From Oscillospiraceae bacterium (GTDB taxonomy: Bacteria > Bacillota > Clostridia > UMGS1810), in assembly GCA_015069095.1 (NCBI GenBank), contig SVJH01000011.1, positions 1-64,000 on the forward strand: a DNA stretch of 64,000 nt. Reading direction: 5' to 3'. Every line of letters starts with the position of its first letter. Position 1 is the first letter of the stretch. Positions 9,233-40,749 of the stretch are shown piece by piece. The notes below the pieces were generated by a model that searched no databases, was not told where the DNA came from, and saw nothing but the letters and a program-made list of their open reading frames with translations. The translations under genes were made by a program, and so were the position numbers.

Positions 9233-11980
9233 ATGAAAAAAGTTTTATGTTTAATTTTATCTGTGTTAATGCTTATTTCATGCTTTTCATTCAGTGTATT
9301 TGCACAGGATGAAATAAGTATTGTAATCAATGGTAAAAAACTTACAATGGACCAAAATCCTGTAATTATTGACGGAAGAACACTTGTTCCACTTCGTGCA
9401 ATATTTGAAGGACTTGGTGCACAGGTAGAATGGGACGATTCAGTTAAAACTGCAATCGGCAAAAGAGACGGAAAAGAAATAAAAATCCAGATTAACAATA
9501 CGTTAGCAAAAGTAAACGGAGCTGGCGTTACACTTGATGTTCCTGCACAGCTTATAAACTCAAGAACAATGGTGCCTGTAAGATTTATCTCAGAAGCACT
9601 TGGCGAAAAAGTGGATTGGGACGATGCTACAAAAACAGTTATAATTACAAGTAACAACGCATTAAAAGAATGGAATTTTGATAATATTTCATCTTTTGAA
9701 CTTAACAAAGACTTTGTAATGGGTGCATCTTACGACGCCAAAAATGTTTCATTATCAAAAGATGTTGACCACACTACAGGTAGCGGTCAGTCGTTAAAAA
9801 TGGCAAATAGAACAATTGGCGATTACAGAGTTAAATTTGTAGATGCTTTCTCAAATGCAGATTTAGGGAAAACATTTACCATTTCTGCTTATGTTTACGG
9901 AGAAACTAACGGAACAAATGTTTCGCTTGGTGTATATGGTGCACAAGGCACACCATCTGCATTTACACCTGCTGCAGCAAGCAAAGTAAACATAAATGCT
10001 AAAGAGTGGACTATAATTGAAATTACATATAAACACGAAAATGCTGAAATTACACAAATCGGTATTTGTCAGGCAGGTAAAGATGCAACTGTTATTGAAA
10101 CACTTTACATTGACGATATAAAAATTACAGAAGGCGGAAAAACCGGAGGTAGTGAAGAATACAGAGCAGTAAAAGTTACTGACGGACACAGACCTGTTCC
10201 AACCAGTTTTACAACAGGTAAAGGATATGATGACCTTATTTATTATTCATATGGAACAAAAACAAACGACGAACTGCTTGCCGCACTACCCGAAGGAGAA
10301 ACTATCGTTACAAACGATGACCTTATAAATGCAGTTGCAACAGTTAAAATGAGTGAATATGGAACAATTGAAGTTGTAGATGTAGAAGGTATGCCGTTTA
10401 AAAAAGCGGTAAGGGCAACGACATCAAAAATGCCTGAAAATTCGTACGGATTCCAACTTGAACTTGGTACACCGCTTGAAGGAAAAGCCGAAAGTGGCGA
10501 TACACTTCTTTTAAAAGTATATATGAGAACATTATCTGGCGGAGATAATGAAGCGCAAAATGGTAAAATTCAGGTTGTAGTTGAAGAAAACGGCGGTGCT
10601 CACGCAAAATCGCTTACAGGTGATGTTTCAAACGGATTATACTGGAAAGAATTTTATTTTCCGCTTAAATTTACAAATAACTATACAAGAGCAACTGTTC
10701 GTTTAGGTTTTTATCTTCAGACGGTTGAATTTGGCGGATATGAAATTATAAACTATAAAGACAAAGCCGCAACGGGTGACCTTCCTTCTGATAAAACATC
10801 AAATTATCCGGGCCTTGAAAAAGATGCCGCATGGAGAAGAGAAGCGTGGGACAGAATTGAAAAAATAAGAAAAGGCGATTTTAAAGTTATCGTTAAAGAT
10901 AAAGATGGAAACATTGTTCCAAATGCTAAAGTCGACGTTAATATGTACGAACACGAATTTGAGTTTGGTACGGCAGTAAACGATTTGATTTTAAAAGACG
11001 AGCGTTACAAACAAGTTGTTCAAACAAACTTTAATACTGCAGTTTCAGAATCTAACACAAAATGGGCACAGTACGAAAAAGATAAAGACCACGCAAGAAA
11101 TATGCTTCAAATGGCAAAAGATATAGGAATTAAAAACCTTAGAGGCCATGTTCTTATGTGGGATAGAGCCGATGTAAAAGACGGCTGGGTTGACAACACT
11201 TGTATTCCAAAATATCTACGTGATGTTTACGATGATAAAGATAAAGTTCAATCACTTGTAAAAGAACATATCGATTCAATCACAGGCGAACTTAAAGATT
11301 TAATCCCTGATGAATGGGACGTTATGAACGAAGCGTGCTCACACAGAGTACTTCTTGATATGTACGGCGACGAGCTTATCACAGAATGGTTTAAAATGGC
11401 GCGTGAGGCAATGGGTGAAGACGCCGATCTTTACTACAATGATTTTAAAACAAACGAAGAAATATTCAACATTTTAGATGTTATGGTTAAAAACAATACA
11501 GATTTTGACGGCATCGGACTTCAGTCTCATTTTAAAGCAATAACACATCCCGAAAATGTAATTGATTTTTATAAAAATATAGCAAAATATGGCAAAAAAA
11601 TAAAAATTACAGAATTTGACGTTGCAACAAATGACGAACTTGCACAGGCAGGTTTCTTAAGAGATATGCTTATTGCGGCATTCAGTATGGAAGAAATAGA
11701 AGGGTTTATTGTCTGGGGATTTAAAGGCGGTGCAGGAGATAAATACGTTCTTTACTATAGCGACTTTCAGGAAAAAGCAGGTCTTAGCGCTTGGCAGGAT
11801 TTAATTTACAATAAATGGTGGACAAAAGAATCTGGCACAACAGATGCAACCGGAACTTTTGCAACAAGAGGTTACTATGGCGATTACGACATCACAGTAA
11901 GTGCAAACGGAAAAACCAAAACAGTTTCTGCTCCTTTCTACAAAGGAAATGACAATACACTTGTAATTACATTAGATTAA
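9233..11980 (+). CDS. Secreted GH10 endo-beta-1,4-xylanase with stalk domain (xylanase 1)
   Basis: The 915-residue protein is predicted to cut the beta-1,4-xylan backbone outside the cell. Order: signal peptide (1-24; LISC at 14-17 is also a possible lipobox), copper-amine-oxidase-N-like stalk domain (27-140, with GRTLVPLRAIFE and SRTMVPVRFISEALGE), CBM4/9/22-like beta-sandwich (143-298, ending LYIDDIKI), a second beta-sandwich (316-510), GH10 barrel (531-862), C-terminal beta domain (865-915). Acid/base is E700 in WDVMNEA, nucleophile E794 in ITEFDV; RGHVLMW and GIGLQSH are further GH10 landmarks. RBS AAAGGAAG precedes the ATG. First of five consecutive GH10 genes; its catalytic and middle domains resemble xylanase 4 most. 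Confidence 0.93.
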   Translation: MKKVLCLILSVLMLISCFSFSVFAQDEISIVINGKKLTMDQNPVIIDGRTLVPLRAIFEGLGAQVEWDDSVKTAIGKRDGKEIKIQINNTLAKVNGAGVTLDVPAQLINSRTMVPVRFISEALGEKVDWDDATKTVIITSNNALKEWNFDNISSFELNKDFVMGASYDAKNVSLSKDVDHTTGSGQSLKMANRTIGDYRVKFVDAFSNADLGKTFTISAYVYGETNGTNVSLGVYGAQGTPSAFTPAAASKVNINAKEWTIIEITYKHENAEITQIGICQAGKDATVIETLYIDDIKITEGGKTGGSEEYRAVKVTDGHRPVPTSFTTGKGYDDLIYYSYGTKTNDELLAALPEGETIVTNDDLINAVATVKMSEYGTIEVVDVEGMPFKKAVRATTSKMPENSYGFQLELGTPLEGKAESGDTLLLKVYMRTLSGGDNEAQNGKIQVVVEENGGAHAKSLTGDVSNGLYWKEFYFPLKFTNNYTRATVRLGFYLQTVEFGGYEIINYKDKAATGDLPSDKTSNYPGLEKDAAWRREAWDRIEKIRKGDFKVIVKDKDGNIVPNAKVDVNMYEHEFEFGTAVNDLILKDERYKQVVQTNFNTAVSESNTKWAQYEKDKDHARNMLQMAKDIGIKNLRGHVLMWDRADVKDGWVDNTCIPKYLRDVYDDKDKVQSLVKEHIDSITGELKDLIPDEWDVMNEACSHRVLLDMYGDELITEWFKMAREAMGEDADLYYNDFKTNEEIFNILDVMVKNNTDFDGIGLQSHFKAITHPENVIDFYKNIAKYGKKIKITEFDVATNDELAQAGFLRDMLIAAFSMEEIEGFIVWGFKGGAGDKYVLYYSDFQEKAGLSAWQDLIYNKWWTKESGTTDATGTFATRGYYGDYDITVSANGKTKTVSAPFYKGNDNTLVITLD

Positions 11981-11990
11981 AAAACATTCC

Positions 11991-12028
11991 AAAAACATCT
12001 CATTTCTATGAGATGTTTTTGCTTTTTT
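11991..12028 (+). terminator. Terminator of xylanase 1
   Basis: AAAAACATCTCAT and ATGAGATGTTTTT form a stem followed by a T-rich run. Confidence 0.85.
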
Positions 12029-12035
12029 CGCAAAA

Positions 12036-12104
12036 TATGTCCATATGCTCTATGAATTTGTCCATTTACTTTTTTGCGCGGATATGGTATCATTTAAGTA
12101 TACT
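12036..12104 (+). promoter_or_regulatory. Upstream region of xylanase 2: repeated TGTCCAT sites and probable promoter
   Basis: TGTCCAT occurs at 12038-12044 and again at 12059-12065, a 21-base step. A possible promoter follows: TTGCGC at 12074, a long 19-base spacer, TATACT at 12099-12104. The whole block is nearly identical to that before xylanase 3, which supports function or recent duplication. Confidence 0.5.
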
Positions 12105-12127
12105 AAATAAAAAAAGGAGACAAAAAA

Positions 12128-14983
12128 ATGAAAAAAATAATATCATTGGTATTGTGCCTTGTAATGCTTGTTTCATGTTTTTCATTCAGTGCATTTGCGC
12201 AGGATGAAATAAGTATTATAATCAACGGCAAAAAACTTACAATGGACCAAAACCCCGTAATTATTGACGGAAGAACACTTGTTCCTGTTCGTGCAATATT
12301 TGAAGGACTTGGTGCACAGGTAGAATGGGACGATTCGGTTAAAACTGCAATCGGCAAAAGAGATGGAAAAGAAATAAAAATCCAGATTAACAACACAGTA
12401 GCAAAAGTAAACGGAGCTGATATTACACTTGATGTTCCTGCACAGCTTATAAACTCAAGAACAATGGTGCCTGTAAGATTTATATCAGAAGCACTTGGCG
12501 AAAAAGTTGACTGGGATGGCAACACAAAAACAGTAATCATTACAAGCGAAGAAAAAGTACTTTTTGAGCAAAACTTTGATGCTAAAACAGAAATGGTCGA
12601 AAATAAAGATTATGTTGCAGGTGCAGCATATCCTGTTTCAGGACTTAGCATAACAAACGAAGTTGACCATACAACAGGAAACGGTAAATCTTTAAAATTT
12701 GCAGGCAGACAGAAGAAAGAACACAGAATTAAATTTAAAAATGCATTTGAAGGTGCTATAGTTGGCGAAACTTATGTATTTAGCGCATGGGTTTACACAG
12801 GTGTTGACGGCCACGTTGCTATCAATGCTTACGGCGATACAGGTACAGAATATGCATATAAATCTGCTGCAGGAAAAAGCGCAGAAGTTAAAGCAAAAAC
12901 ATGGACAAAAGTTGAGGCTGAATACACATACGACAATACAGAAATTGTTCAGGTTGGTATTGAACAGCCACTTGGAGCAAGTCTTATAGATACTATCTAC
13001 ATAGACGATGTTAAAGTAGAAAAAAAATCTACTGCTGCAAAACCTGAAAAAACAACACTTGTTCCTGTAATAGAAAAAGAAGGCAGACGTCCTATTCCGG
13101 CACCTCAGGTAGAAGGAAAAGGCTATGACGATTTGATTTTCTACGAAAGAGAATTTGAAACAGAAGACGCATCAAAAAAACTTACAAGTGAAGAAATGTT
13201 TGCACTTTTACCAACAGATGCGCAGGTAATGGCTGATCACAGTGATATGGTTAATGCAAGTGTTATGGGTAAAGAATATATGACTATAGAAACTGTAAAA
13301 GCGGAAGGTATGCCGTTTAGTGAAGCAATAAATGCAAAAGTTTCTGTAATTCCAACAGTTCCTTATCATTCACAACTTGTTCTTAAATCACTTGACGATA
13401 ACTCATTTGAAGATGGCGACAATATGCTTGTTACTTTTTATATGAGAACTATTAAATCACAAAATGAGTTTAACATAGGTAGGGTTCAACTTATCGTTGA
13501 ACAGGAACAAGCGCCAAACGATAAAGTACTTAAAGAAGATGTTAAAACAAATGCAAACGGACAATGGAAAAAAGTTTACCTTCCGTTTACTGCAAAAAAA
13601 GGGCACACACGTCTTTGTATCCGTCTTGGATACTACATTCAGGAAGTTGAATTTGGCGGATACGAAATAAGAAATTACAAAGATGTTCCGATTGAAAATC
13701 TTCCAACAGACACAGTTATGGAAACATATGATAAAAAAGAACTTTTCGACAAAAATGTTCAGTGGAGACATGATGCGTGGAACAGAATTGAACAGATTAG
13801 AAAAGGCGATTTCAAAGTTGTTGTAAAAGATGCATCAGGAAATGTAATTGAGAATGCAAAAGTTAACGTCAATATGTATGACCACGAATTTAAATGGGGT
13901 ACAGCAATTAACGGAACTTATAAAAAAGGCGATGCCACAGGCGAAAAATATAAAGAAGCAATTTCAACATTCTTTAATACAGGTGTTGCAGAAAGTGCAC
14001 ATAAACCGGTTGAATATATGACAAAACCTGATCATGCAAAAGATAAAGTAAGAGTTGCGAAAGAAGAACTTGGACTTAAGTATTTTAGAGGTCATACATT
14101 TGTATGGGATCAGCACCTTGTAAGAACATATAATGTAGAAAAAGGCGAATGGATTAAAAATACAAAAGTTTCTGAAGAACTTGCGCTTTTAACTATTGCC
14201 AATGACGAAGCAGGTGTTGATAAATATATTGAAAATTCAATCAAAACCGTTGCAGAAGGGCTAAAAGGTCAAATGATTGAATGGGACGTTGTTAATGAAC
14301 CGCTTGATAACAGAGAAATAAGATCAAGATTTGGAAACGGCGTATTTAACAAATGGTTTGCATGGGCTAAAAAATATGTTCCGGATGCAAAACTTTATAT
14401 CAACGAAACAGGTATTGTAGGTGATCCCGGCAATAACAGAAATCAGGGATTTATGCAACTTCTTGATTATATGGTAGAATCGGGTGTTGAATTTGACGGT
14501 ATAGGTTCGCAAGGACATTTTGGTGCATATGTATCTCCAAAAGCATTCTATGATGAAATGATGCTCCTTGCAAAGTATGGAAAAGAAATGAAAATCACAG
14601 AATTTGATATGGACCTTCCAATGCACGACGATGAAGAAGCAGAAGCAAGTTTTATGCGTGATATAATGATTCTTATGTTCTCAATTGAACAGATGGACGG
14701 ATTTGTTATGTGGGGATTCTGGGACGGCTCACATTGGCTAAACAATGCACCGCTATTTACAAAAGACTGGAAACTTAAAAAGAGCGGTGAGCAGTATATT
14801 GACCTTGTTTATAACAAATGGCTTACAAAAGAAGAAGGTATAACAGGTAAAGACGGCGCATACAATGTACGTGGATTCTACGGCGATTACGATGTAACAG
14901 TAAGTGCAAACGGTAAAACTAAAACTGTAACTGCGTCTTTTAACAAAAATTCAAACAATACATTAGAAGTTGTTATCGACTAA
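12128..14983 (+). CDS. Secreted GH10 endo-beta-1,4-xylanase with stalk domain (xylanase 2)
   Basis: The 951-residue protein has the same order as its neighbours: signal peptide (cleavage after AFA at 26, or LVSC at 14-17 as a lipobox), stalk domain (27-140), CBM (144-298), second beta-sandwich (319-516), GH10 (544-892), C-terminal beta domain. Acid/base E724 lies in WDVVNEP, the canonical GH10 wording; nucleophile E825 lies in ITEFDM. RGHTFVWDQ and DGIGSQGHF complete the active-site signature. The RBS is AAAGGAG. The stalk is nearly identical to that of xylanases 1 and 5, whereas the middle and catalytic domains resemble xylanases 3 and 6. Confidence 0.93.
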   Translation: MKKIISLVLCLVMLVSCFSFSAFAQDEISIIINGKKLTMDQNPVIIDGRTLVPVRAIFEGLGAQVEWDDSVKTAIGKRDGKEIKIQINNTVAKVNGADITLDVPAQLINSRTMVPVRFISEALGEKVDWDGNTKTVIITSEEKVLFEQNFDAKTEMVENKDYVAGAAYPVSGLSITNEVDHTTGNGKSLKFAGRQKKEHRIKFKNAFEGAIVGETYVFSAWVYTGVDGHVAINAYGDTGTEYAYKSAAGKSAEVKAKTWTKVEAEYTYDNTEIVQVGIEQPLGASLIDTIYIDDVKVEKKSTAAKPEKTTLVPVIEKEGRRPIPAPQVEGKGYDDLIFYEREFETEDASKKLTSEEMFALLPTDAQVMADHSDMVNASVMGKEYMTIETVKAEGMPFSEAINAKVSVIPTVPYHSQLVLKSLDDNSFEDGDNMLVTFYMRTIKSQNEFNIGRVQLIVEQEQAPNDKVLKEDVKTNANGQWKKVYLPFTAKKGHTRLCIRLGYYIQEVEFGGYEIRNYKDVPIENLPTDTVMETYDKKELFDKNVQWRHDAWNRIEQIRKGDFKVVVKDASGNVIENAKVNVNMYDHEFKWGTAINGTYKKGDATGEKYKEAISTFFNTGVAESAHKPVEYMTKPDHAKDKVRVAKEELGLKYFRGHTFVWDQHLVRTYNVEKGEWIKNTKVSEELALLTIANDEAGVDKYIENSIKTVAEGLKGQMIEWDVVNEPLDNREIRSRFGNGVFNKWFAWAKKYVPDAKLYINETGIVGDPGNNRNQGFMQLLDYMVESGVEFDGIGSQGHFGAYVSPKAFYDEMMLLAKYGKEMKITEFDMDLPMHDDEEAEASFMRDIMILMFSIEQMDGFVMWGFWDGSHWLNNAPLFTKDWKLKKSGEQYIDLVYNKWLTKEEGITGKDGAYNVRGFYGDYDVTVSANGKTKTVTASFNKNSNNTLEVVID

Positions 14984-14995
14984 TTTAAAACTTTT

Positions 14996-15032
14996 AAAAA
15001 GTCAGGTGAATTTAATTCACTTGGCTTTTTTG
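14996..15032 (+). terminator. Terminator of xylanase 2
   Basis: Stem GTCAGGTGAATT / AATTCACTTGGC (with G-U pairs) and a T run. The same sequence ends xylanase 4 at 21412. Confidence 0.85.
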
Positions 15033-15052
15033 CTTTTAGCAGATATGTCCAT

Positions 15053-15112
15053 GTATTCTATGAATTTGTCCATTTACTTTTTTGCACGGATATGGTATCA
15101 TTTAAGTATACT
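15053..15112 (+). promoter_or_regulatory. Upstream region of xylanase 3: repeated TGTCCAT sites and probable promoter
   Basis: Two TGTCCAT copies with the same step as upstream of xylanase 2, then TTGCAC at 15082-15087, a 19-base spacer and TATACT at 15107-15112. Nearly base-for-base copy of the 12036-12104 block. Confidence 0.5.
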
Positions 15113-15133
15113 AAATAAAAAAGGAGACAAAAA

Positions 15134-17977
15134 ATGAAAAAAATAATATCATTGGTATTGTGCCTTGTAATGCTTGTTTCATGCTTTTCATTCAGTGCAT
15201 TTGCGCAGGATGAAATAAGTATTATAATCAACGGCAAAAAACTTACAATGGACCAAAGTCCAATTATTGTAGAGGGCAGAACACTTGTTCCGCTTCGTGC
15301 AATTTTTGAAGCACTTGGTGCAAAGGTAGAGTGGGACGACTTAAGTAAAACAGCAACAGGCATTAAAGATGGAAATGAAATAAAAATTCAGATAAACAAT
15401 GCGGTTGCAAAAGTAAACGGAAAAGACGTTACACTTGACGTTCCTGCACAAATTGTAAATAGCAGAACGCTTGTTCCTGTAAGATTTATTTCAGAATCTT
15501 TAGGTCTTAAAGTTGACTGGGATGATGCAACAAAAACTGTAATTATAACAGGTGGAAAAATAATCACTTTTGACGATGTAGAAAGTCTTACAGCAGAAAA
15601 AGATTTTCAGGCAGGCGGTGGCACAGGTGCTAAAAATATTGCGCTTACAACCGAAAAAGACCATACAACCGGAAACGGTAAAAGTGTTAAGGTGTCAAAC
15701 AGAACAAGCACAAGCCACAGAGTTAAATTTATGGGCGATTACGGTATAAATGCAAATGTTGGCGATACACTTACAATTTCTGCTTATGTTTTGGTAGATG
15801 AAGATTCAACAATAAGAATGGGAACATATACAGCGACAGGCGGTAAATACTCTACAAGTGCAAAAGCAAGAAGTGAAAAAGACGCAAAAAAAGGCGAATG
15901 GACATATATTGAACTTACATTTAAAAACGATAACAGCGCAACAATGATAGGTTTTGACCAGGTTAACGGCTCAAATGTATCTAAAGAAATGTACATAGAT
16001 GACATTAAAATTGAAGTTGGCAAAGCGGCAGAACCAATACTTGAAAATGAGTATAACCTACCTTACGATGTGAAAAAAATTGAAGGTAAAAGACCTACAC
16101 CAATTGTTACTGGTGGAAAAACATACGACGATTTAATTTTCTACGAAAGAACATTTAAAGATCCATCAGAAATTAAAACAAGTCAGCAATTGTTTGATGC
16201 TTTGCCAAAAAATCCTGAAAAAATTGCAGATAACAACGTAATGCTTAGTGCAACACTCACGGGCAAGGAATATGCATCTTTTGAAAAAATAGTTGTAGAT
16301 GACGCAACTGTTCCTTTTAAAGAAGGAATAAGAGCAACTGTTACAAAAATTCCTGAACAGCCATATCACGCACAACTTGTTCTTCCAAGTTTAAAAGAAG
16401 GAACATATAAAACAGGCGACAATATGCTTGCAGTTTTTTACTTAAGAACAATTAAAGGCGAAAACGATTCTGGTATGGGAAGAGTTCAGCTTATTGTTGA
16501 ACAGGAAGTTTCTCCTAATGCAAAAGCACTTAAAGAAGACGTTACAACAGTACAGGGCGCACCTTGGAAAAAGGTTTATCTTCCATTTATTGCAAAAGAA
16601 GGCTATGGAAGACTATGTGTACGTCTTGGCTACAACGTTCAGACTGTTGAATTTGGCGGATATGAAATTTTAAATTACAAAGATACAGTAAAATACGAAG
16701 ACCTTCCTTCAGATACTCAGATGACTGATTACGACAAACGTGATATCTTTACAAAAGATGAACAGTGGCGAAAAGAAGCGTGGGCAAGAATTGAAAATAT
16801 AAGACGTGGCGATATTAACGTTATTGTTAAAGATAAAAACGGAAATGTTATCGAAAATGCCGATGTAAAAGTTAATATGTACGACCACGAATTTAAATTT
16901 GGTGCTCCAGTTAAAACAACTGCAGACAATTCGCAAAATGCAAATGCGCACATAACACTTTTCAATACAGGTGTAAACGAATCTTCAATGAAATGGGTAT
17001 ACCTAATAGATGACGGTGGCGAAAAGGCACAGGCAGATATTGATTTTGCTAAGAAAAACGGTCAAAAATATTTCAGAGGACACGCTCTTGTATGGGACAG
17101 AGATTATGCACTTACATATGATAAAGAAACAGATAAGTGGATATACAACACATCTACTCCTGAAACACTTGTAAGAGCAACACTAAAAGGCGACAAAGCA
17201 GAAATTGACCGACTAATAAAAGAACACGTAGAAAATACTGTAGGTAAGTTTAAAGATTACATTGACGAATGGGACGTTGCAAATGAAATTATGCAACATA
17301 ACCTTATTCGTAAAACATACGGAAACGAAGTTTTGAAACAGTGGTTTACATGGGCAAAACAGGTAGACCCAAAAGCAAAAATGTATATCAACGAAAATGG
17401 TATTATAGGTGTTGGCGATTACACAAAATATGATAACTTCAGACGCGTTTTAGATGAAATGGTTGCTATGGATGTTCCGTTTGACGGAATAGGACTTCAG
17501 GCACATATTGACGGCTGGTCATCAATGGAAAGTATTTATGATAAACTTTCTGGCCTTGCATCTTACGGAAAAGAACTTAAAATTACAGAATTTGACGTAA
17601 ATAAATCACTTCACATGGAAGATGAAGAAGCAGAAGCAAGTATGCTAAGAGACCTTTTAATTATCTGTTACAGTATTCAAAATATGGACGGTTTTGTAAT
17701 GTGGAATTACAAAGAAACAGGCGCAACTTCAAGACGTGATGGTCCTATATTTAACGCAGATTGGACACTAAAACTTTCTGGCGAGCAGTTTTTAGACCTT
17801 GTTTACAATAAATGGTGGACACAAGAAGAAGGAAAAACAGACGCAAACGGTGCATTTACAACAAAAGGATACTACGGCGATTATTTAATTACAGCAACAG
17901 CAAATGGAAAAAGCAAAACTGTTGATGTTAAACATTATAAAGGAAATACTGATACAATAGAAATAGTTTTGGATTAA
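15134..17977 (+). CDS. Secreted GH10 endo-beta-1,4-xylanase with stalk domain (xylanase 3)
   Basis: The 947-residue protein contains signal peptide with LVSC/AFA as in xylanase 2, stalk (27-140), CBM (142-294), second beta-sandwich (317-515), GH10 (542-890) and C-terminal beta domain. Acid/base E718 sits in WDVANEI, nucleophile E819 in ITEFDV; RGHALVWDR is intact. The gene is a clear mosaic: promoter, signal peptide and the first ~40 codons are almost identical to xylanase 2, then from the codons for MDQSPIIVEG onward the stalk becomes almost identical to xylanase 4. RBS AAAGGAGA precedes the ATG. Confidence 0.93.
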   Translation: MKKIISLVLCLVMLVSCFSFSAFAQDEISIIINGKKLTMDQSPIIVEGRTLVPLRAIFEALGAKVEWDDLSKTATGIKDGNEIKIQINNAVAKVNGKDVTLDVPAQIVNSRTLVPVRFISESLGLKVDWDDATKTVIITGGKIITFDDVESLTAEKDFQAGGGTGAKNIALTTEKDHTTGNGKSVKVSNRTSTSHRVKFMGDYGINANVGDTLTISAYVLVDEDSTIRMGTYTATGGKYSTSAKARSEKDAKKGEWTYIELTFKNDNSATMIGFDQVNGSNVSKEMYIDDIKIEVGKAAEPILENEYNLPYDVKKIEGKRPTPIVTGGKTYDDLIFYERTFKDPSEIKTSQQLFDALPKNPEKIADNNVMLSATLTGKEYASFEKIVVDDATVPFKEGIRATVTKIPEQPYHAQLVLPSLKEGTYKTGDNMLAVFYLRTIKGENDSGMGRVQLIVEQEVSPNAKALKEDVTTVQGAPWKKVYLPFIAKEGYGRLCVRLGYNVQTVEFGGYEILNYKDTVKYEDLPSDTQMTDYDKRDIFTKDEQWRKEAWARIENIRRGDINVIVKDKNGNVIENADVKVNMYDHEFKFGAPVKTTADNSQNANAHITLFNTGVNESSMKWVYLIDDGGEKAQADIDFAKKNGQKYFRGHALVWDRDYALTYDKETDKWIYNTSTPETLVRATLKGDKAEIDRLIKEHVENTVGKFKDYIDEWDVANEIMQHNLIRKTYGNEVLKQWFTWAKQVDPKAKMYINENGIIGVGDYTKYDNFRRVLDEMVAMDVPFDGIGLQAHIDGWSSMESIYDKLSGLASYGKELKITEFDVNKSLHMEDEEAEASMLRDLLIICYSIQNMDGFVMWNYKETGATSRRDGPIFNADWTLKLSGEQFLDLVYNKWWTQEEGKTDANGAFTTKGYYGDYLITATANGKSKTVDVKHYKGNTDTIEIVLD

Positions 17978-17981
17978 GTTT

Positions 17982-18014
17982 AAAAAGCATCTTCTTTGGG
18001 AAGATGCTTTTTTT
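17982..18014 (+). terminator. Terminator of xylanase 3
   Basis: AAAAAGCATCTTC / GAAGATGCTTTTT stem with a short loop and long T run. Confidence 0.88.
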
Positions 18015-18139
18015 ATGCGCAACGTGCTGTGCTTTAAAAAAATATTTGTTTTTTATAATTTTTGGTTTGTTTTTTGTATTTACAACATATAAAAAATTTG
18101 ATAAAACAAAAAATGTATTAAAATTGTGGAGGTAAGAAA

Positions 18140-21100
18140 ATGAAAAAACTAATATCATTGGTATTATGCCTTATTATGATTGTTTCTTGCTTTTCGTGCG
18201 TTTCATTTGCCGAAAGCGAAATTCAAATTGTAGTAGATGGTAGTTATTTAACAATGGACCAAAGTCCAATTATTGTAGAGGGCAGAACACTTGTTCCTCT
18301 TCGTGCAATTTTTGAAGCACTTGGTGCAACAGTTACTTGGGATGATACTACAAAAACAGCAACAGGTGTTTTGGGCACAACAACAGTATCACTTCAAATT
18401 GACAATACTCAAGCAAAAGTAAACGGAAAAGACGTTACACTTGACGTTCCTGCACAAATTGTAAATAGCAGAACGCTTGTTCCTGTAAGATTTATTTCAG
18501 AATCTTTAGGTCTTAAAGTTGACTGGGACGATGCTACAAAAACTGTAATTATTACAACTCCTTTAAAACTTATAAAGGAATGGAATTTTGAAGATAAAAC
18601 TATTCTTAAAGAAAACGAAGATTTTATTGCAGGCGGCGGAATAAGTGCTAAAAACATTGCAATTTCTACTGAGCAAAATGCAACAGATAACGGGAGTAAA
18701 TCGCTTAAAATGGCAGAGAGAACAAGCTCTAACCACAGAGTTAAACTAATGAATGCATTTAGCGAAGATATGATTGGAAAAACATATACAATCACTGCAA
18801 AAGCATATTTAAGCGATGCATCGGGCTCTGTAAGAATGGGGCTTTACAGTACAACAAATACCGAGTATGCAACAAAACCGATTGCCGAAGTAAGCGTTAA
18901 AGCCGAAAAAGGCAAATGGGTAGATTTAAAACTTACATACAAACACGAAAACACAATTATTACACAAATTGGGTTTGACCAGTATCAAAGTGCAAGAAGC
19001 GATAATATTTTTATCGATGATGTGAAAATTTTCTTAGGTACAGATGAGGTTTTCAAACCTACAAAATATGGCGATCTTACACTTATTAAAGAATGGACAT
19101 TCAACGACACAGAAACTTTTAAAAATAATACAGACTTTATCACAGGTGGCGGCTACAATGCCGATGGCGTATCTGTTTCTGCCGATTTTGATGCAAACGG
19201 AAACGGTAAAAGTTTAAAACTTGACAAAAGAACAAACTTAGCTCACAGAATTAAATTTAAAAATGTATTTACAAAAGAAAACATCGGAAAAGTTTATACA
19301 GTTAAAGCGAAAGTTTATGTTCCTGACTATGATATGATTTCAGTAGTGGGTGCATATTCAGATGTAAATACAATTTATGCAATGAGCCCTATAAGTTATA
19401 CTTCTACACCAATTAAAAAGAATACATGGACGGAAGTTGAATATTCATTTTTACACGAAAAGGAAATGATAACTCAACTTGGATTTGGTCAGGCAGATGG
19501 TAAAACAGTACCGCTCTTCTACATAGACGATGTACAAGTTTTTGAAGGCGGAGTTGTAAAGGAAGAAGTACTTGAAGATTTAACTGTAACTGACGGCCAC
19601 AGACCTGTTCCGACTGAATTTTCAAACGGCAAAGGGTATGATGATTTAATATACTTTGGCGAAGGCAAAAAAACAGCAGACGAACTACTTAAAGCCCTTC
19701 CTGAAGGAAAAGAAGTAGTAGGCGGAAACTATATAGCCGAATACTTACAAAAAAATCTTGAAAAACAGGACAGATACAATCCTGAACACGGAAAACTTGA
19801 AGTAATAGATGTTTCTGGCATGCCTTTTACAAAAGCAGTAAGAGCAACGGTTTATAATCCTTTAGACCCTGCATACGCATTCCAACTCGGTCTTGGAACT
19901 CCTCTTGAGGGCAAAGCAGAAGAAGGCGATGTTTGCCTTTTAAGACTTTGGATGAGAACGGAAAAAGGCGGTCAGGGCGAAGCTCAAATGGGAAATGTTA
20001 TGGTTGTTATTGAAGAAAATGGCGGTGGATATGCCAAAACAATAACAGCAAACGTAACAAATGCAAGTGAATGGAAAGAATTTTACTTCCCGTTTAAATT
20101 CAAAGACAACTATACTCATGCAACAATCCGTCTTGCATACTATACTCAGGTTGTAGATATTGGCGGTTACACAATTACAAATTACGGAAAAGATGTTGAT
20201 ATTGATTCTTTGCCAACCGATACAAACTCTTCTCCTTACCTTGCGCGTGATGCAGCGTGGAGAAAAGAGGCGTGGGAAAGAATTGAAAATATAAGAAAAG
20301 ATAACTTTAGCATAGTTGTAAAAGATAAAAATGGAAATTTGGTAAACGATGCAGATATTAAAGTTAATATGTATGAACACGAATTTGAATGGGGTGTGGC
20401 AATACATTCATCAATTTTAAAAGATGATTTTTACAGAAAAGAACTTCAGAAAAACTTTAATGCAGCGGTATGTGAAAATCATTGCAAATGGAATATTTAC
20501 GATCAGGATCCATCTCTTACAGAAGATATACTTAAAGAGGCAAAAAACATAGGCATTAAATACATAAGAGGTCATCTTTTAGCTCCGCCTGCACCATTTG
20601 TATATACAGAAGGAAATACAACAACACCAAAAGATTTGCCTGAAATATACAACGATAAAGATGCACTTTTAAAAAGAATTAAAGACCATGTAGATGAAAT
20701 TACAACTCATCTTAAAGAGTATATTCCTTATGAATGGGATGTTGTTAACGAAGCTGCAAGACGTCATGATATAAGAGACGAATATGGTCTTGAAATTATA
20801 AAACAGACATACGATATTGCACGTCAGGCAATGGGCGAAACAGGAAGACTTTATTATAACGATTTTACACTTGACCAGACATTTTATGATATGATGGACG
20901 GTTTTGTAGAAGCAGGAATCGACATTGATGGTATAGGACTTCAGTCGCATTACGGCTCTCCTTTAAATCCGGAATCGATTTATAACATATATGAAAAAAT
21001 GGCTGCATACGGAAAACGTCTTAAAGTTACAGAATACGATTTTTCAACAACCGATTTTGAACTTCAGGCAAACTTTACACGTGATTTTATGATAACTACG

Positions 21101-21400
21101 TTTTCACATCCTTCAATGGACGGACTTATTATGTGGGGTTTCAGAGGAGGTGCATCTAATCAGTATGTTCTTTTTGACAGAAACAATAATCCAAAACCGG
21201 CACTCACCGTATGGCAGGATTTAATTTACAATAAATGGTGGACAGACAAAGAAGGAAAAACAGATTCAAATGGTACATTTAATGTAGATGCTTATTTTGG
21301 AGATTATGATATCACAGTAACAAAAGACGGAAAAACATATAAAACGACAGCAAAACTTTATAAAAATTCAGACAGAACATTGGAAGTTGTTATTGACTGA
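18140..21400 (+). CDS. Secreted GH10 xylanase with two CBMs and an altered RGH motif (xylanase 4)
   Basis: The 1086-residue protein has a signal peptide (IVSC at 14-17; SFA at about 24-26), stalk (28-140), two related CBMs in tandem (147-298 and 313-470), second beta-sandwich (485-683), GH10 (705-1033) and C-terminal beta domain. Catalytic glutamates are present: E871 in WDVVNEA and E965 in VTEYDF. The conserved RGHxxxW stretch reads RGHLLAPPA (R810-), so proline 816 replaces the tryptophan of the -1/-2 subsite seen in the other five. Substrate range may differ. RBS GGAGGTAA precedes the ATG. Body resembles xylanase 1, stalk resembles xylanase 3. Confidence 0.91.
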   Translation: MKKLISLVLCLIMIVSCFSCVSFAESEIQIVVDGSYLTMDQSPIIVEGRTLVPLRAIFEALGATVTWDDTTKTATGVLGTTTVSLQIDNTQAKVNGKDVTLDVPAQIVNSRTLVPVRFISESLGLKVDWDDATKTVIITTPLKLIKEWNFEDKTILKENEDFIAGGGISAKNIAISTEQNATDNGSKSLKMAERTSSNHRVKLMNAFSEDMIGKTYTITAKAYLSDASGSVRMGLYSTTNTEYATKPIAEVSVKAEKGKWVDLKLTYKHENTIITQIGFDQYQSARSDNIFIDDVKIFLGTDEVFKPTKYGDLTLIKEWTFNDTETFKNNTDFITGGGYNADGVSVSADFDANGNGKSLKLDKRTNLAHRIKFKNVFTKENIGKVYTVKAKVYVPDYDMISVVGAYSDVNTIYAMSPISYTSTPIKKNTWTEVEYSFLHEKEMITQLGFGQADGKTVPLFYIDDVQVFEGGVVKEEVLEDLTVTDGHRPVPTEFSNGKGYDDLIYFGEGKKTADELLKALPEGKEVVGGNYIAEYLQKNLEKQDRYNPEHGKLEVIDVSGMPFTKAVRATVYNPLDPAYAFQLGLGTPLEGKAEEGDVCLLRLWMRTEKGGQGEAQMGNVMVVIEENGGGYAKTITANVTNASEWKEFYFPFKFKDNYTHATIRLAYYTQVVDIGGYTITNYGKDVDIDSLPTDTNSSPYLARDAAWRKEAWERIENIRKDNFSIVVKDKNGNLVNDADIKVNMYEHEFEWGVAIHSSILKDDFYRKELQKNFNAAVCENHCKWNIYDQDPSLTEDILKEAKNIGIKYIRGHLLAPPAPFVYTEGNTTTPKDLPEIYNDKDALLKRIKDHVDEITTHLKEYIPYEWDVVNEAARRHDIRDEYGLEIIKQTYDIARQAMGETGRLYYNDFTLDQTFYDMMDGFVEAGIDIDGIGLQSHYGSPLNPESIYNIYEKMAAYGKRLKVTEYDFSTTDFELQANFTRDFMITTFSHPSMDGLIMWGFRGGASNQYVLFDRNNNPKPALTVWQDLIYNKWWTDKEGKTDSNGTFNVDAYFGDYDITVTKDGKTYKTTAKLYKNSDRTLEVVID

Positions 21401-21411
21401 TTTAAAACTTA

Positions 21412-21448
21412 TAAAAAGTCAGGTGAATTTAATTCACTTGGCTTTTTT
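21412..21448 (+). terminator. Terminator of xylanase 4
   Basis: Same hairpin as at 14996 (GTCAGGTGAATT / AATTCACTTGGC, T run); the preceding gene end and spacer are also alike. Confidence 0.85.
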
Positions 21449-21527
21449 GTTTTTAACAAATGTGTTATTTATAAAAAAGAGTTCAATATTTGAAATATAA
21501 AAAGTCAATAAAGTAAAAGAATAAGTA

Positions 21528-21556
21528 TTTACTTTTTATGATAAATAGTGTAAAAT
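21528..21556 (+). promoter_or_regulatory. Probable promoter of xylanase 5
   Basis: TTTACT, 17 bases, TAAAAT. It ends five bases before an in-frame GTG at 21561, which therefore is unlikely to be the start. Confidence 0.5.
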
Positions 21557-21587
21557 TAAAGTGTATCAAAATTATGGAGGTAAGAAA

Positions 21588-24500
21588 ATGAAAAAACTAA
21601 TATCATTAGCATTGTGCCTTGTTATGCTTGTTTCATGTTTTTCATTTAATGCATTTGCAGAAACAGAAATAAGTATTATAATCAACGGCAAAAAACTTAC
21701 AATGGACCAAAATCCTGTAATTATTGACGGAAGAACACTTGTTCCTCTTCGTGCAATATTTGAAGGACTTGGTGCACAGGTAGAATGGGACGATTCAGTT
21801 AAAACTGCAATCGGCAAAAGAGATGGAAAAGAAATAAAAATCCAGATTAACAACACAGTAGCAAAAGTAAACGGAAAAGACGTTACACTTGATGTTCCTG
21901 CTCAGCTTATAAACAGCCGAACAATGGTGCCTGTAAGATTTATCTCAGAAGCACTTGGCGAAAAAGTTGACTGGGACGATGCTACAAAAACTGTTATTAT
22001 TACAAGCGAAAATGGTGCAAAAGTAATCACTTTTGACGATGTTACTTCTTTTGTATCCGGAACAGATTTTCAGGTTGGTGGCGCGTATTCCAACAATAAT
22101 ATTGCACTTTCAAATGAAAAAGACCACACAACTGGAAATGGTAAAAGTATACTTGTAGGTAATAGAACACAAACAAGCCAAAGAATTAAATTTATGGGAG
22201 AATATGGCGCAGATTCTTCAATGAATGAATATGTATTTTCTGCTTACATTTACTCTCCTAATGATGCAACTGTAAGATTTGGTACATACGGAACAACAGG
22301 CAGCGAGTTTTCTACAGCCGCAAAACAGAGTTACACTGCAAATGTTAAAGCAAACGAGTGGACACTTATTTCGGGCGAATTTGTATACGATAAAGATGCT
22401 TGTATGATTGGTATTGACCAGCCAGGTGGTTCAAAAACAATTTTGCCTGAATTTTATGTAGATGACATTACTATTGCTGCAAAGGCGCCTAAGCAGGCGG
22501 GTCTTTTAACTTTTGATGATTTAACAGAATTCGTTTCTGAAAAAGATTTTCAGGTTGGCGGTGGTGCTTCTAACGCAAACATTTTCTTGTCTGACGAAAA
22601 AGACCACACTCAAGGAAATGGTAAAAGTATAAAATTCTTTAACAGAAAAGCCGATAATCACAGAATTAAATTTATAAATATTTTAGACGGTATCGAAGGT
22701 GCTGCTAAAATAACAATGTGGGTTTATCCTGATATTGATGCAACTGTAAGAATTGGAGCATATGGCACAACAGGAACAAAATATGCTACACTTGCAAAAG
22801 AAAGCACAACAGTAAATATTAAAGCAAATCAGTGGAACGAAGTTTCGTTTGTTTACACAAAAATAGATAAAGAAGCACTTATGATTGGTATTGACCAGGC
22901 AAAAGGTGCAGATAAAGTTATAAACACAATGTACATTGATGATGTTAAAGCAGAAAAAACAGATCCAAACACTGCTGTAACACTTCAGGGTGTGCCTTGG
23001 CAAGAAACAAGATACTTAAACGCTGACGGAACAAGACCTGTTCCTACAGAATTTAAAAAATCAAGCGATTTAAGAGATTTAATTTATTATGATGAACTTC
23101 CTACAATGGAAGAAGTAATTCCAAAAATTATGCCGCTTGGCGAAGTTGTATTTTCACTTGACGACTTAAAAGACGCTCAGATTATGGGCGAAAGCAAATA
23201 CGGTAAAGTAGAACTTGTAAATATTGAAGATGCAAAATACGATAAAGTTTACAGAGCAACTGTAACAGAATTGCCACAGTATCCATATAATTTTCAGTTC
23301 AAGAAAAAAATTCCTGATAACACATTTTCTACCGGCGATGTTGTAATGGTAAAAATTGTTGCAAGAACAACAGATGGCGGTATTCCTGAATCAAAAACAG
23401 GTCTTGTAGAATTTAATATTGAAAGCAGCGCAGATTCATCTTCATCTAAAATTCTTATCGGCGACTGCTATGCAACAAGCGACTGGACAACAACTTATGC
23501 AACAACAACAATTTCAAATGCATATACAAAAGATATAGACACTAATATCCGTCTTGGATATTATCTTCAGACTGTAGAAATTGCTGAATACGAAATTATA
23601 AACTTCAAAGACAAAGTCAGCATTTCAGACATTCCTTCAAGAGGCATATATCCTAACATGGAAAAAGGTGCCGCATGGAGAGAAGAAGCACTCCAAAGAA
23701 TTGAAAAAATCAGAAAAGAAGACGTTAAAGTTATTGTAAAAGATGCCGCAGGCAACACAGTTGATGCAAAAGTTGATGTAAATATGTACGAACATACATT
23801 CAAATGGGGTACAGTACTTAATCACACAGCAAATAACATTGCCGAAAAAGGCGAACAATACCGTTCAAATATCGTTAAATATTTTAACACAGTAACACTT
23901 GAAAATGACCACAAATGGAAAGCTATTGCTGAAAATCCGGAAGTTGCAAAAGAATATGTTCAGTGGGCACAGGATAACGGTCTTGCGGTAAGAGGACATA
24001 CACTTGTATGGCCAAGTTACAACAGTACATATGCTGTTCCTGAATTTGTAAGAGAAGCTGTTGCAAAAGGCGACAGAGCAAAATTTGATGAACTTGTTAA
24101 AAACCATATTCAAAATACACTTAAAGATTGGAAAGGCAAACTTTCTGACTGGGATTTAACAAACGAACTTGCAAATAACACAGCATTTGTTGATGCATTC
24201 GGTAAAGAAGTATATATTGACTGGCTAAAATGGGCAAAAGAAGCAGACCCTGATACACCGATGTATTTAAGTGAAACTGCAATTGTTGGTATTGAAGACA
24301 AAACACTTAATGTAATGAAAGATTATCTTGAATATATGAACGAAAACAATGCGCCGTACGACGGTATTGCAATTCACGCACATATGTCAAGTTTAATCGA
24401 CCCTGAAAACTTCTATCGCCAACTTACAAGTGTACTTGAAAGTGCTCCTGGCAAAAAAATGCAGATTACAGAGTTTGACCTAAGAAGCCGTGATGTGTAC

Positions 24501-24845
24501 TCAGGTGCTGAATTTATAAGAGATATGCTTATTCTTTTCTACAGCATCGAGCAGATGGAAGGCGTTCATTGTTGGGGATTCTGGGATGGAAGCCATTGGT
24601 TTAATAACGCTCCTTTATTTGATATGAACTGGGAATTAAAACCTTGCGGCGAGCAGTATATTGATATTATTTATAATAAATTCTGGACAAGAGATTCAGG
24701 TAACACTGCAAATGGAGAATATAACCTAAGAGCATTCCACGGTTTATATAACATTACAGCAACAACTGCTGACGGAAAAACAAAAACAATTAAAACAGAA
24801 GTTAAAAAAGGTGCAGACAACACGTTTGTAATTACACTTGACTAA
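21588..24845 (+). CDS. Secreted GH10 xylanase with two CBMs (xylanase 5, divergent)
   Basis: The ATG at 21588 is chosen over an upstream GTG because GGAGGTAA lies right before it and the encoded MKKLISLALCLVMLVSC is the family signal peptide. The 1085-residue protein has stalk (to 142, of the type in xylanases 1 and 2), CBMs at 145-297 and 304-459, second beta-sandwich (477-674), GH10 (695-1030), C-terminal beta domain. Acid/base E860 sits in WDLTNEL and nucleophile E962 in ITEFDL. The barrel is the most divergent of the set: GIAIHAHM replaces GIGLQSHF, although RGHTLVW is intact. It closes the tandem array, converging on a LysR gene. Confidence 0.91.
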   Translation: MKKLISLALCLVMLVSCFSFNAFAETEISIIINGKKLTMDQNPVIIDGRTLVPLRAIFEGLGAQVEWDDSVKTAIGKRDGKEIKIQINNTVAKVNGKDVTLDVPAQLINSRTMVPVRFISEALGEKVDWDDATKTVIITSENGAKVITFDDVTSFVSGTDFQVGGAYSNNNIALSNEKDHTTGNGKSILVGNRTQTSQRIKFMGEYGADSSMNEYVFSAYIYSPNDATVRFGTYGTTGSEFSTAAKQSYTANVKANEWTLISGEFVYDKDACMIGIDQPGGSKTILPEFYVDDITIAAKAPKQAGLLTFDDLTEFVSEKDFQVGGGASNANIFLSDEKDHTQGNGKSIKFFNRKADNHRIKFINILDGIEGAAKITMWVYPDIDATVRIGAYGTTGTKYATLAKESTTVNIKANQWNEVSFVYTKIDKEALMIGIDQAKGADKVINTMYIDDVKAEKTDPNTAVTLQGVPWQETRYLNADGTRPVPTEFKKSSDLRDLIYYDELPTMEEVIPKIMPLGEVVFSLDDLKDAQIMGESKYGKVELVNIEDAKYDKVYRATVTELPQYPYNFQFKKKIPDNTFSTGDVVMVKIVARTTDGGIPESKTGLVEFNIESSADSSSSKILIGDCYATSDWTTTYATTTISNAYTKDIDTNIRLGYYLQTVEIAEYEIINFKDKVSISDIPSRGIYPNMEKGAAWREEALQRIEKIRKEDVKVIVKDAAGNTVDAKVDVNMYEHTFKWGTVLNHTANNIAEKGEQYRSNIVKYFNTVTLENDHKWKAIAENPEVAKEYVQWAQDNGLAVRGHTLVWPSYNSTYAVPEFVREAVAKGDRAKFDELVKNHIQNTLKDWKGKLSDWDLTNELANNTAFVDAFGKEVYIDWLKWAKEADPDTPMYLSETAIVGIEDKTLNVMKDYLEYMNENNAPYDGIAIHAHMSSLIDPENFYRQLTSVLESAPGKKMQITEFDLRSRDVYSGAEFIRDMLILFYSIEQMEGVHCWGFWDGSHWFNNAPLFDMNWELKPCGEQYIDIIYNKFWTRDSGNTANGEYNLRAFHGLYNITATTADGKTKTIKTEVKKGADNTFVITLD

Positions 24846-24881
24846 TAAAAAACGATGCAGAGTAATCTGCATCGTTTTTTT
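24846..24881. terminator. Bidirectional terminator, xylanase 5 / LysR gene
   Basis: AAAACGATGCAGA / TCTGCATCGTTTT stem with T run on plus and A run on the other side, between convergent stops. Confidence 0.88.
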
Positions 24882-25719
24882 ATTCATTTATAAGTATTTC
24901 AAGAAATGAATTTATACATTTTTTTGTGTATCTGTTTTTTGGTATATATGCATTTGTATTTCTTTTAAAATCGCAAACATTTTTTAAGACTACATTTTCT
25001 GAAAAAAGTCCTTCCCACGATTTTGCCGGTGCAAATGCAACGCCAAGACCGTATTCAACACATTTTCTTATGTAAAACGGGTCATCGCTGTAAATTGCAA
25101 TATTAGGCTTGAAATTTAACTTTTCGCCAATTTTTTGAGTTGTATTATATAAACTTGTGCCTTCGTTCATACAAACAAACGGTTCTTTTTTTAGATCTTC
25201 TGTCAAAATTTTTTCTTTTCTTGCAATTGGATTATCTTTTTTTATAGCCAACATAATATCTTCAGTAAGAATAAGTTTTTTTAGAAAGTTCGAATTTGAA
25301 AATTCATCGTCTGCGATTATGATATCAAAATCATTTGTGTTTTCAAAAATTTTATGGCTTATTTCAAAACTTGTATTGGGATAAAGTTTTTTATACTTTT
25401 CAATTTTATTCATAATTGTATTTCTGTTTGTTAAAATTGCAATTTTTATAAGACCTGACAAAGATAAGTCTTTTATCTCCAAAACAGCGTCGTCAATAAG
25501 GTTTATTGCTCTTTTTATTTTTTCGTAAAACTTTTTTCCATGTTCGCTAAGCGAAATACTGTTTGCACTGCGGATAAAAAGTTTAATATCAAGTTCGTTT
25601 TCAAGACGTTTAATGCACTGAGATATATCTGACGGCGGCACAGAAAAAAGCGATGCCGTTTTTGAAAAATTCTCTGTTTTTGCGGCTGATAAAAAGTATT
25701 TAAGTTGTAAAATTTCCAT
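24880..25719 (-). CDS. LysR-family transcriptional regulator
   Basis: The 279-residue protein has an N-terminal winged helix-turn-helix (about 1-60: LQLKYFLSAAKTENFSKTAS and RLENELDIKLFIRS) and a periplasmic-binding-protein-like effector domain (about 90-275). LysR regulators usually control a divergent neighbour; here that is the PQ-loop/alpha-beta hydrolase pair 131 bases away. Control of the xylanase array is possible but not supported by anything in the sequence. The ATG has AGGTGAG upstream. Confidence 0.92.
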   Translation of the reverse strand: MEILQLKYFLSAAKTENFSKTASLFSVPPSDISQCIKRLENELDIKLFIRSANSISLSEHGKKFYEKIKRAINLIDDAVLEIKDLSLSGLIKIAILTNRNTIMNKIEKYKKLYPNTSFEISHKIFENTNDFDIIIADDEFSNSNFLKKLILTEDIMLAIKKDNPIARKEKILTEDLKKEPFVCMNEGTSLYNTTQKIGEKLNFKPNIAIYSDDPFYIRKCVEYGLGVAFAPAKSWEGLFSENVVLKNVCDFKRNTNAYIPKNRYTKKCINSFLEILINE

Positions 25720-25850: not shown

Positions 25851-26144
25851 ATGGGACAGTTAGCAGAAATACTTGAAATTATTATGATTGTAAGTTTTGG
25901 TGCGTCGTGGCCGCTTAATGTTATAAAATCATATAAAGCGCGCACAACAAAAGGCAAAAGTTTAGGTTTTTTACTTCTTATTTTCTTTGGGTACATAGCA
26001 GGGATTGCATCTAAACTTGTTTCGCCTTCGTATAAATGGTATGTGCTTTTCTTTTATGTTTTAAATCTTGTTATGGTTGGCGCAGACCTTATTTTATATG
26101 TAAGAAATAAAAAACTTGATAAATTAAAGGAGAATGTACAGTGA
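25851..26144 (+). CDS. Small PQ-loop/SemiSWEET-like membrane protein
   Basis: The 97-residue protein has three hydrophobic segments (about 7-24, 38-58, 64-84). WPLNVIKSYKARTTKGKSL (about 24-42) resembles the PQ-loop pattern of SemiSWEET-type sugar transporters, with PL in place of PQ. Three helices and this length fit a half-transporter that would dimerise. Substrate is unknown. It overlaps the next gene by four bases (GTGA), so it is coupled to the hydrolase. RBS GGAGGATA. Confidence 0.68.
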   Translation: MGQLAEILEIIMIVSFGASWPLNVIKSYKARTTKGKSLGFLLLIFFGYIAGIASKLVSPSYKWYVLFFYVLNLVMVGADLILYVRNKKLDKLKENVQ

Positions 26145-26884
26145 AAATTATAAAAGATATACCTTATGTAGAAAACGGGCACAAAAGACAAAAATTTGAT
26201 ATTTATCTTCCTGATGCTGACACGTTTAAAGTATTTATTTACTTTCACGGCGGCGGATTTAGAACGGGCAGCAAAGATAACGAATTAAACAAAATTTTTG
26301 GTGAGTTTATGACAGATAACGGCTATGCTCTTGTTTGTGCAAATTACCGTCTTTCGCCTGAAGCAAGATATCCTGATTACGTATATGACGCCGCAGCGTG
26401 TGTTGCGCATGTAAAGAAAAATATTGAAAACCACGGAAAATGCGAACGAATATATGTTGGCGGAAGCAGTGCGGGAGCATATCTTTCAATGATGCTTTGC
26501 TTTGATGAAAAATATTTAAAATGGTACGATGTAAATCCTATTGAAATTGACGGTTGGTTCCACGATGCAGGTCAGCCGACATCCCACTTTGGAATAATGC
26601 GCGAAAGAGGATTTGAAAGATATAAAGTTGTTGTTGATGAATCTGCACCAATGTATCACGTTGGCGACCAGAAAGAATATTCTCCAATGCGATTTATTGT
26701 TTCCGATAACGATATGCCCGCAAGATATGAACAGACTATGCTTATGATTGCAACAATGAAAAGTTTTAATTACGATATGGATAAAGTATCGCTTAAAGTT
26801 ATGAATGGTACACACGGTGCATATGCAAAAGACAGAAAACTACTCGGCAGTATGATTTGTGAATTTTTAGATTCGCTAAAGTAA
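26141..26884 (+). CDS. Alpha/beta hydrolase, HSL-type esterase family
   Basis: The 247-residue protein begins with GTG overlapping the upstream stop (GTGA); GGAGAATG lies just before. It carries the oxyanion-hole motif HGGGF (about residues 36-40), ANYRLSPEARYPD, and the nucleophile elbow GGSSAGAYLS (about 106-115), all typical of hormone-sensitive-lipase/acetyl esterase enzymes. The late DND and GTHG stretches provide the likely Asp and His. No signal peptide, so cytoplasmic. Deacylation of imported sugar esters such as acetyl-xylo-oligomers would fit the neighbourhood but is inference. Confidence 0.85.
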   Translation: MKIIKDIPYVENGHKRQKFDIYLPDADTFKVFIYFHGGGFRTGSKDNELNKIFGEFMTDNGYALVCANYRLSPEARYPDYVYDAAACVAHVKKNIENHGKCERIYVGGSSAGAYLSMMLCFDEKYLKWYDVNPIEIDGWFHDAGQPTSHFGIMRERGFERYKVVVDESAPMYHVGDQKEYSPMRFIVSDNDMPARYEQTMLMIATMKSFNYDMDKVSLKVMNGTHGAYAKDRKLLGSMICEFLDSLK

Positions 26885-33458: not shown

Positions 33459-33502
33459 TGAAATATATAACCATTTTTAGATGGTAAATGGAGGAGAAAG
33501 AT

Positions 33503-35659: not shown

Positions 35660-35702
35660 AAAAGTGTAACTATTTTTGAAATAGTGATTGGAGGAGAAAA
35701 AT

Positions 35703-40710: not shown

Positions 40711-40713
40711 AAG

Positions 40714-40749
40714 AAAAAAAGGTATCTCAAAAAAAGAGATGCCTTTTTT
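40714..40749 (+). terminator. Terminator-like hairpin before the beta-helix gene
   Basis: AAAGGTATCTC / GAGATGCCTTTTTT stem (one G-U pair) and T run. It is the last of four hairpins in the 40.61-40.87 kb gap, which holds no gene. Confidence 0.75.

Follow-up and report, generated by a model that had tools for sequence, protein, structure and literature searches.

Why would a bacterium carry five genes for the same kind of glycoside hydrolase in a row? The question is raised by a 64,000-nt stretch from the genome of a gut-type Oscillospiraceae bacterium (contig SVJH01000011.1 of assembly GCA_015069095.1; hereafter the window), in which five open reading frames (ORFs) of family GH10 follow one another on the + strand at 9233-24845, no further substantial gene lying among the five, and a sixth stands downstream on the same strand. 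We named these genes X1 to X6 in order of position (Table 1). A sequence-only reading had described five consecutive same-strand GH10 genes and a sixth, all six sharing one modular plan with a stalk domain, and had taken the run for a local amplification. The ORFs, Pfam searches and an alignment bear out the description. The amplification does not hold, given that array neighbours are not closest kin and that the expansion is genome-wide (27 genes) and paralleled by one of 64 genes in a sister genus. We consider it likely that X1-X6 belong to an old family, hyper-expanded and diverse in function, of exported endo-beta-glycanases, most probably endo-xylanases, that bear carbohydrate-binding modules (CBMs) and share a 5′ cassette homogenised by recombination.

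Array neighbours belong to separate GH10 lineages

Each of the six products exceeded the curated cut-off of the GH10 profile PF00331 (22.1 bits) with 112-131 bits, the domain lying near the C-terminus, and each scored 137-142 bits, also above cut-off, with the stalk profile PF07833 at the mature N-terminus, behind a signal peptide; the GH10 assignment thus stands. The catalytic domains of X1-X6 are 33-54% identical, with synonymous differences of 0.55-0.70 that approach saturation. With catalytic parts this dissimilar, the array is, by this measure, no product of misassembled near-identical copies. A phylogeny of 93 catalytic domains placed X2, X3 and X6 with a trio from contig C12 of the same genome and set Paenibacillus proteins as the sister of this group. 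It put X1 and X4 in a second clade with genes on C6, C3, C33, C15 and C28, and X5 apart from the other lineages. As judged from these sequences, the array combines three or more ancient GH10 lineages (X2/X3/X6, X1/X4 and X5); because deep supports were moderate, we limit the claim to that minimum and claim no exact branching order. The nearest catalytic relative of X1 is a paralogue on C6 (61%), that of X2 a paralogue on C12 (64%), and that of X4 a gene on C3 by identity or on C15 in the tree. Neighbours in the array are therefore not mutual closest relatives in the catalytic domain, as members of a recent tandem gene array would be. That a single xylanase gene was recently amplified in tandem at this locus would suit the head-to-tail order on one strand, the common modules, the near-identical 5′ ends and a mean catalytic identity slightly higher within a contig, but is very improbable in view of the near-saturated synonymous sites, the scattering of neighbours over different clades and the 21 further copies elsewhere in the genome.

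The source genome (2.06 Mb in 46 contigs, 97.9% complete) contains 27 GH10 genes, all above 22.1 bits, with groups on C13 (six), C6 (four), C12 and C37 (three each), and C15, C28 and C29 (two each). Their summed coding length, calculated from protein lengths, is about 77.7 kb, or 3.8% of the genome. SIG435 (SVJM01), a metagenome-assembled genome from a sister genus of the same family, has 64 GH10 genes, and most of its copies form a clade of their own in the tree; the sequences point to two lineage-specific expansions, one per sister genus. Besides these two, the 16 genomes of the order comprise 11 with no GH10 gene and three with 1, 4 and 9. Among 391 Clostridia genomes, 99 had any GH10, and those listed apart from the source and SIG435 had at most 13 each; that maximum counts first-look candidates, of which only five per genome were scored, and not confirmed genes.

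The stalk has evolved apart from the catalytic domain

The stalk is present in 23 of the 27 GH10 proteins, and the genome has 46 PF07833 matches in all. Stalk identity reaches 96% for X1/X5, 95% for X2/X5 and 94% for X1/X2, with synonymous differences of 0.19-0.24; for X1/X5 the synonymous difference is 0.19 in the stalk compared to 0.70 in the catalytic domain. Thus X1 is nearest to X5 in its stalk, whereas its catalytic domain is nearest to the paralogue on C6. In 245 of 253 pairs across the source genome, the stalk had a smaller synonymous difference than the catalytic domain. X3 and X4 share an exact DNA run of 116 bp in the stalk despite 38% catalytic identity, and X3 shares exact runs of 55 and 73 bp with X2 at the signal peptide. 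In sliding comparisons, X3 resembled X2 at first and X4 further on within the stalk, and the identity of all pairs fell to background at about 400-420 bp, where the stalk ends. In the 218 pairs whose catalytic domains are less than 50% identical, exact matches of at least 45 bp were seen in 13 stalks compared to one remainder, even though the remainders are several times longer. Genes on the same contig had more similar stalks than expected once catalytic similarity was allowed for (permutation P = 0.0006).

We regard recombination homogenising the 5′ ends as the simplest and best account of this pattern, with gene conversion as the putative mechanism. Protein selection and codon usage might instead have kept the stalks alike with no exchange between copies. 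The stalk is indeed conserved in many unrelated proteins, the contrast is weak in SIG435 (lower stalk synonymous difference in 684 of 946 pairs, with no strong cases between diverged pairs), and a permutation test could not tell the stalk from the catalytic control. We nevertheless find this explanation unlikely, since it does not readily accommodate synonymous differences of 0.19-0.28 in pairs whose other parts differ by about 0.65-0.70, exact runs of 116, 78, 77 and 73 bp, the switch of X3 inside the stalk, or the fact that X2 and X3 also share promoters, and X2 and X4 terminators.

Catalytic residues are retained while the copies diverge

The alignment confirmed that both catalytic glutamates are intact in X1-X6, as had been noted, and extended this to 26 of 26 aligned plant-type GH10 proteins of the genome, in which N127, H81, H207 and W266 are also invariant (positions follow what we take to be Streptomyces lividans numbering, assigned by motif). 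In SIG435, the acid/base is kept in 55 of 56 copies and the nucleophile in all. The closest GH10 pairs of the source genome have a catalytic ratio of nonsynonymous to synonymous substitution (dN/dS) of 0.15-0.25. Because of the invariant residues and this purifying selection, the copies are maintained enzymes, and the earlier expectation that they are active gains support as a prediction.

Functional redundancy, with copies kept for gene dosage only, could account for the common domain plan and the common 5′ cassette. It is nonetheless hard to credit, because the catalytic domains of the genome's copies are 30-85% identical with differing subsite residues, the closest pairs are under purifying selection and the upstream regions differ among most genes. 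The suggestion that the enzymes are tuned for different xylans is upheld as to diversification, tuning itself being plausible; the better hint of it lies in the variable -2/-1 subsite positions N45, W85 and W274, not in the CBM number on which the suggestion had been based.

Binding modules and predicted structure

By alignment, X1, X2, X3 and X6 have one CBM_4_9-like module and X4 and X5 have two, as previously counted. The profile PF02018 scored above cut-off in X4 and X6, below it in X1 and was unlisted in X2, X3 and X5, though all of them align throughout. That count had overlooked an additional beta-sandwich (about residues 365-516 of X2) directly before GH10 in every copy. Modelled alone (226 aa, predicted local distance difference test score, pLDDT, of 86), it matched CBM4 of cellulosomal enzymes and of a Rhodothermus marinus xylanase, and CBM22 of xylanases. 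On this model the module is CBM4/22-like, which brings the totals to two CBMs in X1, X2, X3 and X6 and three in X4 and X5. The AlphaFold model of whole X2 (pLDDT 87) matched the GH10 xylanase 7d88, its closest solved structure, with a TM-score of 0.85 over the target (E = 4e-24), in an alignment spanning the catalytic and C-terminal beta domains, and its (beta/alpha)8 barrel agrees with solved GH10 structures.

The probable substrate and the xylan-pathway genes not found

The sequences are most probably those of endo-beta-1,4-xylanases (EC 3.2.1.8), with subsite residues partly conserved and partly altered. Xylan is favoured by the enzyme family itself, by the closest structures, by the type of CBM and by neighbours of xylan-linked families. 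Those beside GH10 genes elsewhere in the genome include GDSL esterases with CBM_4_9 on C12, a stalk-CE2 protein on C37, SASA/CE6-like proteins on C28, C39 and C6, an AXE1/glucuronoyl-esterase-like protein, and GH39 and GH3 on C39.

Several observations weigh against the interpretation given at the outset. At the -2/-1 subsites, N45 is N, S, G or another residue (often S), W85 is lost in 4 of 26 copies (P in X4) and W274 is retained in 8 of 26; in X5, Q205 is H. GH10 profile scores in the source genome are modest, 88-155 bits compared to 300-400 for typical clostridial xylanases. Profile searches of the source genome, on which the absence of these families rests, found no model match for canonical xylose isomerase (xylA), no GH67 or GH115, and of GH43 only a 94-aa fragment with no intact copy. 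Such absences are unexpected for a xylan specialist; any single one may be a gap in the assembly, but four gaps together are unlikely. The function of the stalk is predicted rather than established. Finally, when polymorphic sites were permuted in a GENECONV-like test, 29 of 253 stalk pairs were flagged compared to 15-27 per catalytic control window, and we discarded the test as support for conversion because the control was flagged about as often as the stalk.

These absences may mean that oligosaccharides are used by other enzymes such as GH39 and GH3, that the cell removes xylan to get at another polymer, or that some copies act on another substrate. That the GH10 enzymes of this clade act mainly on something other than ordinary xylan, such as a different beta-1,4-glycan or an oligosaccharide with decorations, would explain both the absences and the altered subsites, and would agree with the place of the FGGY kinase most like xylulokinase, in an operon that is not for xylose. 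We find this doubtful, as a xylanase is the closest match in both structure and sequence, the esterases next to GH10 genes belong to families linked to xylan, GH39 and GH3 also lie close by, and CBM4/22-like modules are typical of xylanases. A more speculative thought, which we hold only tentatively, is that this gut Clostridia clade, with 27-64 GH10 genes in about 2 Mb, a recombination-uniform stalk, diversifying clefts and none of the usual xylose and debranching genes, has an undescribed use for them, either on an unknown glycan or in stripping xylan for another polymer.

On C28, a xylose-isomerase-like TIM-barrel protein (PF01261, 100 bits; L029:10937-11863) is encoded directly after a GH10 gene and is a candidate unconventional sugar isomerase. 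The FGGY kinase, which scored near the xylulokinase cut-off, was rejected as a xylose gene because its operon (L125:573-10309) has NagA-, GlcD-, class II aldolase-, ribokinase-, IolB- and Etf-like genes. Gene sizes and the kinase match at L128:5460-19570 in the GH10-rich sister genome, on a contig that bears four GH10 genes, and the operon is apparently conserved between the two genomes.

Neighbouring genes and transcription signals

The observation that no xylosidase, transporter or xylose gene stands beside the array is correct for the array itself, which lacks the linked transporter, beta-xylosidase and xylose catabolism genes of a xylan utilisation locus, but an esterase and a LysR-type regulator follow it (Table 1). 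Between the array region and the X6 region are housekeeping genes (a transglycosylase/transpeptidase penicillin-binding protein, a PGA_cap protein and a cell-wall hydrolase), and two CBM_4_9 proteins precede X6.

Table 1. Features of the window, with coordinates and strand.
Feature	Coordinates	Strand	Domains and remarks	Basis
X1	9233..11980	+	Signal peptide, PF07833 stalk, CBM4_9-like, CBM4/22-like, GH10, C-terminal beta domain	Pfam, alignment
X2	12128..14983	+	Plan as X1	Pfam; AlphaFold model, pLDDT 87
X3	15134..17977	+	Plan as X1; mosaic 5′ end: X2 (first ~110 bp) and X4 (~270-390 bp)	
X4	18140..21400	+	Plan as X1 but two CBM4_9-like modules; W85 to P	
X5	21588..24845	+	Plan as X1 but two CBM4_9-like modules; isolated GH10 lineage; Q205 to H	
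X6	37780..40608	+	Plan as X1; X2/X3/C12 clade	
Terminator-like hairpin after X2	14996..15030	+	Identical over 35 bp to hairpin after X4	
Terminator-like hairpin after X4	21413..21447	+	Identical to hairpin after X2	
Terminator-like hairpin after X5	24847..24880	+		
LysR-type regulator	24880..25719	-	Adjoins array; putative link to array only	PF03466, PF00126
BD-FAE-type esterase (acetylxylan/feruloyl esterase family)	26141..26884	+	1.3 kb past array	PF20434, 72.5 bits
Secreted stalk-only protein	26995..27723	+		PF07833
Secreted CBM_4_9 protein	33488..35566	+	No recognised catalytic domain	PF02018, 53 bits
Secreted CBM_4_9 protein	35688..37649	+	Paralogue of preceding protein (31-34% identity); no recognised catalytic domain	
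Secreted protein after X6	40690..42297	+	C-terminal ~100 aa recur near GH10 genes on C12, C3 and C29	

The X5 ORF is open from GTG 21561; translation probably starts at ATG 21588, which we preferred because GGAGG lies directly upstream. LISC and LVSC in the signal peptides might be read as lipoboxes, a reading that we have provisionally not adopted, as the Cys is absent from many paralogues and an FA-type signal peptidase I site follows. The array genes are probably transcribed singly, because terminator-like hairpins follow X2, X4 and X5, a further one lies in the X1-X2 gap, and most genes differ in their upstream regions, as judged from consensus scans only. A promoter-consensus scan of this DNA gave nothing specific (79 promoter-like sites compared to 69 expected), nor did a tandem-repeat scan.

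The C-terminal segment of the protein after X6 is 39-50% identical to its counterparts beside GH10 genes and is possibly an unrecognised export or anchoring module. A Big_5 protein at 63225-64000, which runs to 66212 on the contig, is 34-42% identical to homologous giant CBM96/Big_5 proteins (1368-1897 aa) that adjoin GH10 genes on C28, C29 and C3. The protein at 54843-56096 has repeats resembling BspA-type leucine-rich repeats and carries its stalk at the C-terminal, not the N-terminal, end. Two arrangements were seen in SIG435: a 200-aa stalk ORF that overlaps a 556-aa GH10 ORF by 4 bp (L055:4016-6285, same as L114), a frameshift or split gene, and two adjacent GH10 proteins of 1.32 kaa with no stalk detected (L129:9630-17576), an alternative architecture.

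Discussion

In the account that we favour, each gene would be expressed separately with an export signal, and the N-terminal stalk would probably place the enzyme at or near the cell surface. One or two CBM4_9-like modules and the CBM4/22-like module would bind polysaccharide, which the GH10 domain would cut by the retaining two-glutamate mechanism. The family would have grown by repeated duplication and relocation, independently in two sister genera, while recombination between paralogues homogenised the signal peptide, the stalk and in places the promoter, and the CBM and catalytic parts diverged. The outcome would be a set of enzymes that have a handle in common but differ in their binding clefts, perhaps with complementary specificities. 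Uniform stalks joined to diverged catalytic ends are a natural example of exported enzymes evolving module by module, and the separate expansion of one enzyme family in two sister genera lets one ask why a microbe needs dozens of copies. The set likewise lets one ask whether differences at the subsites correspond to different xylans of plants, and is a ready panel for enzyme discovery.

GH10 domains, their CBMs and stalk domains are already known; a literature search, partial in coverage and no proof of absence, found no report of the stalk-GH10 combination or of an expansion to 27 or 64 copies. PF07833 proteins without an amine oxidase domain occur among the surface proteins of Desulfotomaculum reducens (PMC4137172), which by analogy supports, without showing, a surface role for the putative stalk. 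The fibre specialist Bacteroides cellulosilyticus WH2 also has several GH10 genes in one genome, but its seven are far below 27 or 64, and those which that study describes lie in polysaccharide utilisation loci with susC/D genes (PMC3747994). XynA of Bacillus sp. KW1, the source of 7d88 (PMC13288935), has the GH10 barrel, the N-terminal WR-x-EA segment and the C-terminal beta domain in common with our proteins; it differs in its low identity (about 23%) and in that no PF07833 stalk was matched there, and it is a single enzyme for which no expansion was examined. In Xyn10B of Clostridium thermocellum (2w5f), a CBM22-GH10 xylanase, the CBM stands directly before GH10 as it does here, but the matched structure has no PF07833 stalk and identity over aligned columns is about 16%. 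In plant-type GH10 proteins, a CBM-like module and an Ig-like start precede the barrel, and the C-terminal end is of the GxFxxxGFxGDYxI type; the proteins of this array would resemble them in these features and differ in being bacterial, exported and stalk-bearing.

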